Shown here: in pieces, positions 37,989 to 49,364 of the stretch
How positions within the stretch are numbered: the first letter of the stretch is position 1
How the letters are laid out: the number at the start of each line of letters is the position of its first letter
Assembly (NCBI RefSeq): GCF_017921895.1
Contig: NZ_JAFIDN010000003.1
Location: 124,001 to 188,000, forward strand
Length of the DNA: 64,000 bases
Reading direction: 5' to 3'
Origin: Natronogracilivirga saccharolytica
Lineage (GTDB): Bacteria > Bacteroidota > Rhodothermia > Balneolales > Natronogracilivirgulaceae
The notes under the pieces: generated by a model
Told to the model about the DNA's origin: nothing
Database searches by the model: none
Seen by the model: the letters and a program-made list of their open reading frames with translations, nothing else
Translations under genes and position numbers: made by a program

Positions 37989-38111
37989 CCGCAGATCACC
38001 CAACTGATCACCCCATACATCATCCAGAAGATCACCCTGTTGATAATCCGGCAGATCATCCGGCAGATCACCCGGCAGATCACCCCTTAAATCATCCCTC
38101 AGATCACCTCG
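37989..38111. repeat. 12-bp degenerate tandem repeat after mgtE
   Basis: About ten units of 12 bases, consensus CGGCAGATCACC, occupy the DNA just after the mgtE stop. The best units are at 38049-38108. Read on the minus strand in one frame (37965-38119), they encode an open tetrapeptide repeat (G/D-D-L-P/R) that ends in a TGA. That frame is shifted relative to mgtE, so it is not translated as mgtE. Confidence 0.8.
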
Positions 38112-38115
38112 CTGA

Positions 38116-39483
38116 TTATCCCGTAATAAGGCTTGCCAGGAACAGGGTACTCAGCCCCAGATAGATGCTCACACCTGTAATATCTGTAATGGTAGTCAGG
38201 ACCGGACCGGTCATCAGTGCCGGGTCTCCGCCCAGGCGTTTGATGAAGAACGGGAGCGTACCACCTATGAGCCCCGCCAGCAACACATTGCATCCCAGTG
38301 CAAAACCGGCAACCATGCCAAGCACCGGATTGCCCTGCAGAAGGACCGCGATTACCGTGAACAGGGTGCCGAGAGCAAGTCCGTTAACAAGTCCGACAAT
38401 AATCTCCTTTCTTGCTGCTTTCAGGTACTGGCTCATCCTCACTTCACCAAGAGCAAGGCTCCGGATGGATACCGAGAGCGCCTGAATGCCCACGTTACCG
38501 CCCATGTCGGTGATCATCGGAAGGAAAATGGCCAGCGCTGCAACAGCCTCTATGGTGGCTTCATACGAAGCAATCACCGCAACGGCGCCGAGATTCAGAA
38601 ACACATTTGCCGCCATCCAGGGCAGGCGCTTTTTAACGGAATTGACCGGAGTGGTGAAAAAGGATTCATCCACCGAAGCCGCACCCAGTTTCACGAACTG
38701 ATCAGCCAGGTTTACTGACAAGATGTCGATGGCATCATCAAGCAGCAGGACTCCGGTAAGCACATTTGCGTCATTGACAACCGGCATCATCTGATACCGG
38801 CGGTTTCTGAGCAATTGCGCCGCATCAATGGCCTTGTCATTGACGTGCACGACCACAACATCTTCAGAAGCGACCCCGGAAATCGTCTTCACCGGATCGG
38901 CCCGCAGCAAATCTCTCAGGGACACCACACCGCGGGGGCAACCTTTGTCATCAACAACATAGATGTAGGCACGGTTCTGAACCCGGTTGGGGGCATCTTT
39001 CAGCGCTTTCAGTGTATCTCCGACGGTCGCTTTCTCCCGCACGGCAATAAAATGGGTATTCATCACCGATCCCACAGTACCCTCGTCATACTGCATCAGA
39101 TTTCGGATGTTCTTTTCCACCTCGGGATGAATACTGTCAAACAGCTCCCTGCCCTTGCTGTCATCCAGCAACGAAACAATGTCTGCCGCATCATCCACCG
39201 GTGCGCGGGCAATCAGTCTTGCAGAAACTTCGGGATCCAAGTGGTAAAATAGCTCAGCAGCTACTTTTTTCGGCATTTTAACGAGAATGTCTGCAGCGTG
39301 TTTCTCTTCAACTTTTTCCAGAAACGGAACGACGATATCGTTGCTGTAGCCGGTCAGAAGCCCGGCGATGCGTCCGCTGGAAATATTGGGTGCGATATTC
39401 GCGGCATCATCCACATTGCCCTGTTTCATGTTTTCAACGAACTGTTCGCGGTAAGCAAGAAGCACTTCGGGTTCAAGTATCAT
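38116..39483 (-). CDS. mgtE: Magnesium transporter MgtE
   Basis: Mg2+ channel, 455 residues. The N-terminal superhelical domain (about 1-125) has LVKMPKKVAAELFYHLDPEV. Paired CBS domains (about 130-255) have GTVGSVMNTHFIAVREKATV and NRRYQMMPVVNDANVLTGVL. Five membrane helices follow, with LPWMAANVFLNLGAVAVIAS, FLPMITDMGGNVGIQALSVS (the permeation helix), GGTLPFFIKRLGGDPALMTG and VLTTITDITGVSIYLGL. The cytoplasmic domains gate the pore by Mg2+ in characterised homologs. No Mg2+ riboswitch was recognised upstream. It is divergent from the macrodomain gene. Confidence 0.96.
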   Translation of the reverse strand: MILEPEVLLAYREQFVENMKQGNVDDAANIAPNISSGRIAGLLTGYSNDIVVPFLEKVEEKHAADILVKMPKKVAAELFYHLDPEVSARLIARAPVDDAADIVSLLDDSKGRELFDSIHPEVEKNIRNLMQYDEGTVGSVMNTHFIAVREKATVGDTLKALKDAPNRVQNRAYIYVVDDKGCPRGVVSLRDLLRADPVKTISGVASEDVVVVHVNDKAIDAAQLLRNRRYQMMPVVNDANVLTGVLLLDDAIDILSVNLADQFVKLGAASVDESFFTTPVNSVKKRLPWMAANVFLNLGAVAVIASYEATIEAVAALAIFLPMITDMGGNVGIQALSVSIRSLALGEVRMSQYLKAARKEIIVGLVNGLALGTLFTVIAVLLQGNPVLGMVAGFALGCNVLLAGLIGGTLPFFIKRLGGDPALMTGPVLTTITDITGVSIYLGLSTLFLASLITG

Positions 39484-39576: not shown

Positions 39577-39632
39577 ACTGACCACTGATCACTGATCACT
39601 GAATACTGAATACTGAATACTGACCACTGATC
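39577..39632. repeat. 7-bp tandem repeat, eight units
   Basis: Eight consecutive heptamers ACTGAYC or ACTGAAT run in the order ACC, ATC, ATC, AAT, AAT, AAT, ACC, ATC (last three bases). The period is not a multiple of three and it lies between the divergent mgtE and macrodomain genes. Such arrays change copy number by slippage and could alter promoter spacing. Confidence 0.88.
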
Positions 39633-39716: not shown

Positions 39717-40238
39717 ATGAGTGACCAAGTCAAGCTGGAGTGTGTGCAGGGCGATATTACCGATCAGCCCGATCTTGATGCCGTTGTGAATGCCGCCAAT
39801 GCCGAGCTGCGTACGGGCGGCGGCGTTGCAGGAGCCATACACCGGGCAGCCGGACCGGATCTGGAAGAGGCTTGCCGGCCGCTGGCCCCCATCAAACCGG
39901 GTCAGGCTGTTGTGACATCAGCATTTGGCCTGCCAAACAAAAAAATTATTCACTGCCTGGGACCGGTTTACAATATCGACAAACCATCCGATCAGCTGCT
40001 GGCGGATTGTTACCAGAATGCGCTCAGGCTTGCAGATTCGGAAAAGCTGGCATCGCTGGGGTTTCCCGCCATATCCACGGGTGCATTCGGATTTCCGGTT
40101 CATGAAGCGGCCGAAGTTGCGGCAGACGCCATCCACTCCGTACTGTCCGGACTCAGCCATCTCCGGCTGGTGCGAATGGTGCTGTTCAGTCCCGGAGACA
40201 AGGATGTTTTCCAAAAGGCGCTGGGAATCAGCCGGTGA
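39717..40238 (+). CDS. Macrodomain protein (ADP-ribose / O-acetyl-ADP-ribose processing)
   Basis: 173-residue single macrodomain, YmdB-like. Ligand-loop signatures are VVNAANAELRTGGGVAGAIHRAAG near residue 28 (quoted in parts: NAANAELRTGGG and VAGAIHRAAGPD) and SLGFPAISTGAFGFPVHEAA near residue 115. Members remove ADP-ribose from proteins or hydrolyse O-acetyl-ADP-ribose; which applies here is not visible. A clear GAGGGAG lies upstream of ATG 39717. It may be followed in the same transcript by the repeat-bearing membrane protein 67 bases downstream. Confidence 0.93.
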   Translation: MSDQVKLECVQGDITDQPDLDAVVNAANAELRTGGGVAGAIHRAAGPDLEEACRPLAPIKPGQAVVTSAFGLPNKKIIHCLGPVYNIDKPSDQLLADCYQNALRLADSEKLASLGFPAISTGAFGFPVHEAAEVAADAIHSVLSGLSHLRLVRMVLFSPGDKDVFQKALGISR

Positions 40239-40305: not shown

Positions 40306-41490
40306 ATGAATCAATATTCCCGGCCTTTTTCCATACGTGGCTTTGTATCATTATTAATGGCGTTTACCTTTCTCGGCCTGGCCGTATCCGGAGTGATCAT
40401 GTATATGGCGCCGCCATGCGGCATTGCCGGTCAGACGGGCTGGACCATGCTTTCACTCACCAAAGTTCAGTGGGTGTCGCTGCATCAGGTCACCGCCCTG
40501 ATCATCCTTGTGCTTGCGGTCATCCATCTGTTTGTATACAACTGGAAGACCTTTATGTGCTACTTCCGGAACATGAAGTCCAAAAGAAGAAGGCAAATCG
40601 AGAAACAGCAGGAAATGGAATTGAATGACTCAAAGATACGGATCATCCGCATACCGCGGGAAGTCTACCTGTCACTGCTGGCTGCTGTAGTGCTCTATGC
40701 CGGAGCACTGACGCTGATGCCGCCCTTCGGATGGCTCCATGAGGGAAGCGAAATTATTGAAGATCGCTACAGGAAAGAAGCTCCGGCCGGATCCGGGCGC
40801 GGTCAGGGGTATGGTGATCAGCAGGGCTACGGTCTCGGAGATCGTGACGGCCGGACTCAGCGGGAGATGGCGGTCAACTCCAGTGCCGTTATACTCCCTT
40901 CCGACCGAACGGATTCTGATGAAAGTGATGGCGAGCAGGCACGAACCGGTCGCGGCGACGTCACGGGCGAAGGGCAGCATGACGGCTCCGGTTTGCGCGA
41001 TGGCTCAGGTGAAGGTCTGCAGGACGGTACTGGCGAAGGAGTGAGAGACGGATCAGGAGAGGGGCTTCGTGACGGATCGGGCCGGGGAGCCCGCGATGGA
41101 TCCGGTGGCGGACTGCGTGACGGCAGCGGACAGGGATTGCGGGATGGTTCCGGAGCTGGCCTGCGGAATGGTTCAGGCGAAGGAGCACGAATTGGTTCCG
41201 GGGAAGGTCTGCGCGACGGATCGGGTGTGGGTCAGCAGGACAGTATTGGAGAAGGCTTGCGAGATGGCTCGGGTGAAGGTCAGCAGGACAGTACCGGAGA
41301 AGGCTTGCGCGATGGATCGGGAGGAGGTCTTCAGGACGGCTCAGGTGAAGGTGTAAGAGACGGCTCGGGAGAGGAACGTCGTGACAGCAGCGGAATCGGC
41401 CGCGGAGAAGACGGTTCCGGTGAAGGACGCGGAGAAGGTCAGGGCCGCCGGGATGGATCCGGCAACCGTGACGGACAGAATGTATCCTGA
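40306..41490 (+). CDS. Membrane protein (DUF4405-like) with a C-terminal Gly/Asp/Arg octapeptide array
   Basis: 394 residues in two parts. Residues 1-145 hold three membrane segments (about 13-35, 58-78, 122-142) with a basic loop KSKRRRQIEK after the second, placing the C terminus outside. His60 and His74 in the second segment (SLHQVTALIILVLAVIH) resemble the paired His of DUF4405/cytochrome b561-like helices, so haem binding is possible. Residues about 221-376 are some nineteen octapeptides, consensus G-L-R-D-G-S-G-E, from a 24-bp DNA repeat, followed by a Gly/Arg/Asp tail. The repeats balance acidic and basic residues and lack aromatics. They may bind Ca2+ or form a glycine-rich sheet or coil; function is unknown. 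Probably the same transcript as the macrodomain gene. Confidence 0.8.
   Translation: MNQYSRPFSIRGFVSLLMAFTFLGLAVSGVIMYMAPPCGIAGQTGWTMLSLTKVQWVSLHQVTALIILVLAVIHLFVYNWKTFMCYFRNMKSKRRRQIEKQQEMELNDSKIRIIRIPREVYLSLLAAVVLYAGALTLMPPFGWLHEGSEIIEDRYRKEAPAGSGRGQGYGDQQGYGLGDRDGRTQREMAVNSSAVILPSDRTDSDESDGEQARTGRGDVTGEGQHDGSGLRDGSGEGLQDGTGEGVRDGSGEGLRDGSGRGARDGSGGGLRDGSGQGLRDGSGAGLRNGSGEGARIGSGEGLRDGSGVGQQDSIGEGLRDGSGEGQQDSTGEGLRDGSGGGLQDGSGEGVRDGSGEERRDSSGIGRGEDGSGEGRGEGQGRRDGSGNRDGQNVS
40966..41433 (+). repeat. 24-bp tandem repeat (about 19 units) coding the octapeptide array
   Basis: Units of 24 bases such as GGTCTGCGCGACGGATCGGG plus four bases recur without indels. Synonymous differences between units indicate age, while the longer near-identical pair around 41233-41318 (a 48-base higher-order unit with CAGCAGGACAGTA and TTGCGAGATGG) suggests recent duplication. 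Confidence 0.9.
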
Positions 41491-42319: not shown

Positions 42320-42766
42320 ATGTTTCGCACATTGTTTGCATTTGTATTTTTGCTGTCGTTTTCGCTGACGGCATGCGAGGAAAGATTGCCGCCGCCGGAG
42401 GAAGAGCCTCCGCCGGGAGAAGAACAGCCTCCGCCGGATGATCAGCCGCCACCTGACGACCAGCCTCCTCCGGATGATCAGCCGCCTCCCGGACCTATGG
42501 GAGAGAGCAGCAATGCTCCTCAGCAGGAAGCTGACCCGGACATTGAGGTCACACAGGATGATCTGGAAGCCATCGCCGAAATTGAGGTAGAGGCTCAGAA
42601 TCTACAGATTGACCGCCATACTGATCCGGAAGGATTTGAATCGCTGGTCCGGGATGAAGGAATGGAAATGGAGGAGTATGAACAGCTGAACTTTGCCATT
42701 CATCGGGACCCAGAGCTTCAGCAGCGACTCTATGAAAAGATTGAAGAGTTGCTTGAAGACGCCTGA
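42320..42766 (+). CDS. Lipoprotein with Pro/Asp repeats, DUF4168-like C terminus
   Basis: 148 residues. Signal peptide with lipobox (FLLSFSLTAC) lipidated at Cys19. Residues about 24-57 are repeats of P-P-P-D-D-Q from an 18-bp unit, a stiff spacer holding the domain off the membrane. Residues about 72-148 are helical and acidic: ITQDD-like start VTQDDLEAIAEIEVEAQNLQ, then MEMEEYEQLNFAIHRDPELQ. This pattern resembles DUF4168. The function is unknown. A strong intrinsic terminator follows at 42819. Confidence 0.75.
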   Translation: MFRTLFAFVFLLSFSLTACEERLPPPEEEPPPGEEQPPPDDQPPPDDQPPPDDQPPPGPMGESSNAPQQEADPDIEVTQDDLEAIAEIEVEAQNLQIDRHTDPEGFESLVRDEGMEMEEYEQLNFAIHRDPELQQRLYEKIEELLEDA

Positions 42767-47606: not shown

Positions 47607-47843
47607 TTATAAGCGGTCATAATCCTCGGGTTCCACATCCGGGACCTGAGACAAGATATCTTCAAAGTCTTTGCGGTTTCCTTTTTTTGCTCTTTCCTTC
47701 AAATAATCAACCGTCAGTAAGACTGATAACTTTTCCGATACCGCCAAACTGATAAATTGATTCATCGAAACTCCTTCTTTTTTGGCCAGTTCCTTTAGTT
47801 TTTTGTGGACCGACTCCGGAAGTCTTACACTTAGTGTACTCAT
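47607..47843 (-). CDS. Ribbon-helix-helix antitoxin
   Basis: 78 residues. The N-terminal ribbon-helix-helix reads TLSVRLPESVHKKLKELAKK followed by EGVSMNQFISLAVSEKLSVL, typical of CopG/Arc antitoxins that bind their own operator. The C-terminal part (LKERAKKGNRKDFEDILSQV and after) would wrap the toxin. Its start overlaps the end of the PIN gene by four bases, so the two are translationally coupled. Confidence 0.85.
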   Translation of the reverse strand: MSTLSVRLPESVHKKLKELAKKEGVSMNQFISLAVSEKLSVLLTVDYLKERAKKGNRKDFEDILSQVPDVEPEDYDRL

Positions 47844-48262
47844 GGCAGTTCCTCGATTATTTTTAAATGCTCCCTGGCTGTAACGGGCTGAATTCCAAAT
47901 TCATTAACGCCTGCAAAATCAGCCTTGTTATAGGTCACGATGTATTTACAACCAGCTCGTACGGCTAATTCCAAAATCAAATCGTCTCCTGGATCTCGCA
48001 AAATAGGTCGCCACAAGTAGTAAACGTCATGGCAGTTACCAACCTTACACAAGTAGTCCATAAATTTATCTATTTGCTCATTCGAAATGGACAATGTCGG
48101 CTGTTTTCTCTTTAGTACATCCTCATACTCCAGGACCAATGGAACAGAAAGGTTAATTTCAAATTTTCCAGAATGAAGCAAAGAGAACAAGCGAAAAGAA
48201 GCTCCTTTTCGGGATCTTAGTGCAGAATAGAGGACATTTGTATCAATGATAATTTGATTCAT
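47840..48262 (-). CDS. PIN-domain toxin
   Basis: 140 residues of the PIN-family toxin type (COG1569-like). The acidic metal-binding residues are visible in MNQIIIDTNVLYSALRSRKG, VPLVLEYEDVLKRK, and ILRDPGDDLILELAVRAGCK, with YIVTYNKADFAGV at the end. PIN toxins are Mg2+-dependent RNases that often cut tRNA or rRNA. Here the toxin gene comes first and the antitoxin second, the reverse of the common order. AT content is higher than in flanking housekeeping genes, which fits transfer. Confidence 0.88.
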   Translation of the reverse strand: MNQIIIDTNVLYSALRSRKGASFRLFSLLHSGKFEINLSVPLVLEYEDVLKRKQPTLSISNEQIDKFMDYLCKVGNCHDVYYLWRPILRDPGDDLILELAVRAGCKYIVTYNKADFAGVNEFGIQPVTAREHLKIIEELP

Positions 48263-48547: not shown

Positions 48548-49364
48548 CGCCGGAAGCACATCGGTATGTTAACTTCCCCTATGATGCGTTGGAAGAAGCT
48601 CTGGCCAATGCGGTTTATCACAAAAGCTACGAAGAACCCAAACCGATCGAGGTTCAGATCTGGCCGCATCAAATTGAAATCCTGAGCTTTCCCGGTCCGG
48701 TGCCGCCGGTAGATGCGCAAATTCTGGCTGAAAACCGGCGAATTGTGGCACGTGACTACCGCAACCGCCGGGTGGGAGATTTTCTGAAATAGCTCCACCT
48801 GACCGAAGGACGGGGCACGGGCATCCCCACCATGCGAAAAGCCATGCTGAACAACGGCTCGCCCGAACCGGTGCTGGAAACCGATGAGCAGTGTACGTAT
48901 TTCCTTACTATTCTCCCTGTTCATCCTGAATGGTTGGATGAAGCATCAGGGAGTGACCAAGCACCGACCAAGTACCGACCAAGTGGTGAACATGTAGTGA
49001 ACAAGCACCGACCAGGTAGCGACCAGGATTCTGAGGGTAAGCGGACAAGTACCGGGCAAGTGGTGAACAAGTACCGACTAAGTACCGACTAAGTGCCGAC
49101 CAGGTACCGACTAAGTATAGGTCATATGTCAAAGAAATAGAGACGCTTATATCAGTTATTAAAGGAGAAATGCAGTTTAGTGAAATAATGGAAACATTAC
49201 AGCTCAGACATAAACCTCACTTTAGGGACAATTACTTGCAGCCTACACTTAAATCAGGCTTCATAGAAATGACCATCCCCGATAAGCCTAAAAGCAGTAA
49301 GCAAAAGTACCGGCTCACGGAAAAAGGACGGGAACTGCGGGAACAGCTAAAAAAAGAATTATGA
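48548..49364 (+). pseudogene. Broken ATP-binding (AlbA_2/HATPase_c_4-type) regulator gene upstream of hsdR
   Basis: Starts directly at the end of CRISPR-type repeat B. The frame reads PPEAHRYVNFPYDALEEALA and NAVYHKSYEEPKPIEVQIWP, the ATPase-like C-terminal domain of AlbA_2-family proteins often found inside type I restriction operons. The N-terminal DNA-binding half is absent. An amber TAG at 48790, where a sense codon is expected (FLK-stop-LHLTEGRGTG), interrupts the domain. A linker of short repeats (KYRPS/KYRLS, about 48954-49118) contains a TAA and a frame change. A C-terminal winged-helix-like segment (RHKPHFRDNYLQPTLKSGFI, 49120-49364) follows. Its last codons overlap the hsdR start by four bases, a trace of former coupling. 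Confidence 0.75.
48954..49118. repeat. Tandem repeats in the linker of the broken ATPase gene
   Basis: Units of 12-15 bases built on AAGTACCGACCAAGT or AAGCACCGACCAGG recur about ten times. They encode K-Y/H-R-P-S/G type repeats. Copy-number or length change within this array explains the frame change seen near 49090. Confidence 0.7.

Follow-up and report, generated by a model that had tools for sequence, protein, structure and literature searches.

Heme binding by DUF4405 cytochromes was reportedly shown only recently, and we know of no partner for most of these proteins. Heme b has been demonstrated in a purified DUF4405 protein and in purified FezC, a DUF4405-related protein of the ferrosome, and FezC has been modeled as a homodimer, which is described as giving it heme sites like those of DUF4405 (PMC11334425). 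Here we describe a DUF4405 protein from Natronogracilivirga saccharolytica whose C-terminal tail contains tandem octapeptides. The gene lies in a stretch of 64,000 nucleotides that we analyzed as a whole and that we refer to as the window.

A DUF4405 protein with three membrane spans

The original prediction for this locus, which was made from the sequence letters, was of a three-span membrane protein that carries about 19 octapeptides outside the membrane. The open reading frame, which encodes 394 amino acids, is a real gene and is present as described (Table 1). Its product matches PF14358 (DUF4405) over residues 13-80 (E = 5.6e-12, 46.4 bits versus a gathering score of 26.7), and all 66 positions of the model (1-66) are covered. 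Prokaryotic cytochrome b561 (Ni_hydr_CYTB) is matched as well, more weakly and below threshold, in keeping with this assignment. In its membrane part the protein is a cytochrome of the DUF4405 kind, which is already known, and the genome has no other DUF4405 match.

Table 1. Features of the cytochrome gene and its upstream neighbor. Positions are those of the window.
Feature	Position	Strand	Evidence or comment
Macrodomain (ADP-ribose-binding) gene, 67 bp upstream of the cytochrome gene	39717..40238	+	PF01661, E = 1.5e-39
Predicted b-type cytochrome of the DUF4405 family; C-terminal tail long and Gly-rich	40306..41490	+	Open reading frame; PF14358 match; orthologues
Transmembrane span 1, about aa 8-36	40327..40413	+	Hydropathy; helix 10-34 in low-confidence model
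Transmembrane span 2, about aa 54-82, with invariant His60 and His74	40465..40551	+	Hydropathy; 18 aligned sequences
His60	40483-40485	+	Presumed heme ligand, span 2
His74	40525-40527	+	Presumed heme ligand, span 2
Basic cytoplasmic loop, aa 80-117, 11 K/R versus 4 D/E	40543..40656	+	Residue charge count
Transmembrane span 3, about aa 119-142	40660..40731	+	Hydropathy; helix 118-136 in model
Juxtamembrane AGSGRGQGYGD motif, aa 161-171	40786..40818	+	Alignment, G166 conserved
16 in-phase octapeptides G-(LVAQ)-(RQ)-D-G-(ST)-G-x, aa 229-356	40990..41373	+	Period and unit analysis
Sole tract with significant 48-bp (two-unit) DNA duplication	41206..41349	+	TRF; units 10-15, p = 0.0025
Degenerate, partly out-of-phase copies at the tail end	41374..41469	+	Unit analysis

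Hydropathy bears out the three spans. An AlphaFold model of the membrane part is of low confidence (pTM 0.25, with only 4 sequences in the input), and when a profile was compared with solved structures, the best match had E = 0.085 only. Spans 2 and 3 are joined by a loop rich in lysine and arginine. By the positive-inside rule, this loop and the N-terminus are inside, and the tail at the C-terminus is outside, where the original prediction had put the array.

Eight residues are invariant across 18 aligned sequences (H60, H74, W46, K53, N79, W80, P140, and F141). Conserved in-membrane histidines that ligate heme are characteristic of DUF4405, and H60 and H74, which are 14 residues apart, correspond to these; both are expected to be ligands of heme b. 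Two histidines at this spacing in one helix would fit a bis-heme site that lies between two subunits. Given the family match and the heme b in family members (PMC11334425), the membrane part of this protein probably binds heme, as had been suspected. We recognized no redox partner near the gene and noticed no ferrosome genes at the locus.

The octapeptide array is old and is maintained by selection

The tail after span 3 is 238 residues long and has a period of 8 (z = 13.5 relative to shuffled versions of the tail); harmonics appear at 16, 24, and 32. Beyond the 16 strict units there is one degenerate unit (ERRDSSGI), with scattered DGSG pieces on both sides, so that a total of about 18-19 is reached and the predicted 19 or so was a fair count. 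Within the strict units, position 4 is aspartate in 14 of 16 and position 6 is serine or threonine in 15 of 16. Position 8 is glutamate in 10 of 16 and is otherwise G, R, Q, A, or V. As originally noted, the array is free of aromatic residues. However, the idea that arginine cancels the charge of aspartate and glutamate does not hold: the net charge is -11 over aa 229-364 and -18 over the whole tail. We infer from this composition that the tail is disordered; a single-sequence model of the array (pLDDT 50, pTM 0.11) predicts no structure. A phmmer match between the array and Rhoptry neck protein 2 was judged to reflect low complexity.

Differences among the units number 240/206/642 at codon positions 1, 2, and 3, which excludes a non-coding array as far as one genome allows. 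As a rough measure, taken across paralogous units in the one genome of the genus, pS is 0.81 and pN is 0.22 (pN/pS 0.26). The expected pS if synonymous codons were chosen at random is 0.753 (sd 0.034), and the observed value is at or above this: over the whole array, the units resemble each other in DNA no more than they would if their synonymous codons were random. The peptide thus accounts for the likeness of the units in DNA, except in units 10-15. In this tract the 48-base duplication that was originally reported is significant and looks recent, and TRF places a 48-bp repeat at 41198-41372 only. The original view that the array is still changing in length is not supported for the array overall, as its synonymous sites are saturated and this tract is the one local exception. 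Saturated synonymous sites together with conserved amino acid sites imply that the array is old and that its peptide pattern has been kept by selection. By contrast, two relatives have tails built of recently repeated DNA (a 36-bp unit with 96% matches in L036 and a 24-bp unit with 91% in L038). Tails in this family seem to grow through in-frame tandem duplication.

The tail varies among relatives

The membrane part has orthologues (44-61% identity) in 15 other Balneolales genomes: 13 belong to the same family and 2 to a single genus of another family in the order. Matches in two more members of the order were weak only. (Those relatives that bear a name are metagenome-assembled genomes of Balneolales.) In all 17 of 17 relatives, span 3 is followed by a hydrophilic, charge-rich tail of 34-131 residues. 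These tails are mostly glycine-rich (11-36% Gly), and most share the membrane-proximal GRG that forms the core of the juxtamembrane motif, with G166 at least 90% conserved in the alignment. An array like that of the window was found in 0 of the 17. Nevertheless, six relatives have one copy of (R/Q)DG(S/T)G (shuffle P of 0.003-0.02 each), which implies that the 16 units are an expansion of a motif that the family already had.

We also searched for the array elsewhere. Across 245 genomes of the class, the sole close match was the window's own copy (E = 3.4e-62). For four weaker matches (E from 7.8e-5 to 2.8e-8, in G006, G099, G160, and G222), the frames that we inspected had no comparable DGSG array. 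No such array was found in plasmids, and a literature search on octapeptide repeats gave mostly papers about prions and other unrelated subjects. As judged by these comparisons, the array is a lineage-specific expansion on a conserved cytochrome.

DUF4405 proteins from other families of the phylum (L058, L069, L072, and others) have the same membrane part (profile search, E down to 2e-32), but in place of the glycine-rich tail they have a C-terminal region that lacks repeats and contains a GxGxGRKTLxEIA-like motif. Two such cousin genes adjoin a Metal_resist (PF13801) protein (L087:4886-7338 and L092:6026-8450); an ECF sigma factor is also present, confirmed by Pfam in L087 and by sequence likeness only in L092. 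Three others are clustered with an apparent two-component system (L089:5812-10637, L090:2226-6458, and L091:2632-6805), and Pfam matches in the L089 cluster confirm the presence of cytochrome c, histidine kinase, and sigma-54 response regulator genes. These neighborhoods give a hint that the wider group has to do with envelope or metal stress, and there is no such signal at the window. Elsewhere, a His-rich membrane peptide of 76 residues (AHPGHGET..GHS) is encoded convergently to the cytochrome gene (L029:7242-7469, which has no Pfam family, and L031:3108-3335), and in G019 the gene of an Rrf2-family regulator (L037:9424-9876) lies divergently to that of a second DUF4405 paralogue.

The role of the tail

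We think it probable that this three-span DUF4405 protein, whose array is under selection, is an inner-membrane b-type cytochrome with a disordered, periplasmic, glycine-rich tail that serves as a brush or for docking. H60 and H74 of span 2 would hold two heme b groups via homodimerization, as proposed for FezC, and the cytochrome would relay electrons between the pool in the membrane and a partner in the periplasm. The C-terminus would be a disordered, net-negative, glycine-rich tail in the periplasm. In this lineage, the motif that is present once in six relatives would have given rise to an eight-residue module, whose tandem duplication lengthened the tail and which selection then kept. Near the electron-exit face, the tail would act as a flexible hydrophilic brush or as a multivalent docking arm for a partner protein or ions. 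A disordered brush or docking tail is the most likely reading of the tail, although no redox partner was recognized near the gene, no folded domain lies at the tail end to be tethered, and the strict eight-residue register exceeds what a mere brush needs. In a stronger version of this reading, the positionally constrained array, kept by selection, would serve the cytochrome as a multivalent arm in the periplasm, binding an ion, a mineral, or a partner protein and so steering its electrons. We hold this stronger version to be doubtful; if true, it would be a repeat-based docking device of a kind not described for the DUF4405 family.

The tail might instead have arisen neutrally, through DNA slippage at a hydrophilic terminus that tolerates change, as the recently amplified tails of L036 and L038, the several further tandem arrays within the window, and the range of tail lengths (34 to 238 residues) would allow. 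This is unlikely, as the units in the window are synonymously saturated yet their peptide has been kept, and the register of 8 is strict across 16 units. Another alternative is that the array is a metal device, in which Asp4, Ser6, and the glycine carbonyls bind Ca2+ or another cation near the cytochrome. The near-constancy of positions 4 and 6 is compatible with this, and two of the cousin loci outside of Balneolales adjoin Metal_resist. Yet the array has no match to RTX, EF-hand, or any other Pfam family even at E = 10, and position 12 of an EF-hand loop, which calls for glutamate or aspartate, would be glycine by inspection. Moreover, the glutamate position is variable, the bulky residue of RTX repeats is absent, and relatives have the motif once or not at all. 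The Ca2+ binding that had been suggested for the array thus finds no support, and we consider a metal device improbable.

The original prediction also drew attention to the macrodomain gene. It is indeed adjacent, and conserved in 8 other loci (7 relatives have the whole gene, with 72-80% identity, and in one more it is cut short by the end of the contig). If the two proteins formed one unit, an NAD or ADP-ribose signal might be tied to the redox state of the membrane, and the gene is directly upstream and co-directional in these relatives as in the window. Nonetheless, the functional link is weak: at least 7 loci have the cytochrome gene and no adjacent macrodomain gene (L028, L037, L038, L040, L041, L043, and L044), and the spacing in relatives is about 200-300 bp, which does not force co-transcription. 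Other neighbors are equally syntenic, among them rRNA-methyltransferase-like, RlpA-like, and phytoene-desaturase-like genes (named from sequence), so we read the pair as inherited gene order. The macrodomain gene is probably a bystander, and a joint unit seems very improbable.

The window also contains other tandem arrays (37991-38116, 39577-39630, and 48955-49117), which are of the 12/36-bp GATCACC type, a 7-bp ACTGAAC repeat, and an 11-bp GACCAAGTACC repeat. A putative lipoprotein with PPPDDQ tandem repeats is encoded at 42320-42766 and has a sub-threshold match to DUF4168. At 47607-48262 on the minus strand there is a PIN-domain gene, overlapped at its end by a ribbon-helix-helix gene on the same strand; these look like a type II toxin-antitoxin pair.

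Comparison with described systems

In this family of cytochromes, a constant membrane core is joined to a periplasmic part that is either non-repetitive or an expanding low-complexity tail, which amounts to a natural experiment on the role of that part. The array also exemplifies a short repeat that has gone from DNA duplication to retention as a peptide. Like the RTX nonapeptide repeats, it is a tandem peptide rich in glycine and aspartate and lies outside the cytoplasm. It differs from them, as originally stated, in its period of 8, and it has neither the GGxGxDxUx pattern nor a large hydrophobic residue.

With the flavinylation-associated DUF4405 protein from Oscillospiraceae (PMC11334425), the protein in the window shares a PF14358 match above the gathering score and in-membrane histidines. 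In contrast to the flavinylation-associated cytochromes, it has three spans, not six, and a long glycine-rich tail, and its gene has no apbE beside it as their clusters do (ApbE is matched just once in the genome, on a different contig, C19). The likeness to FezC, which we draw from its description, is in how heme sites could be built: with two histidines, the window protein would likewise need to dimerize, and its three spans and two histidines are compatible with a homodimer of the FezC type.
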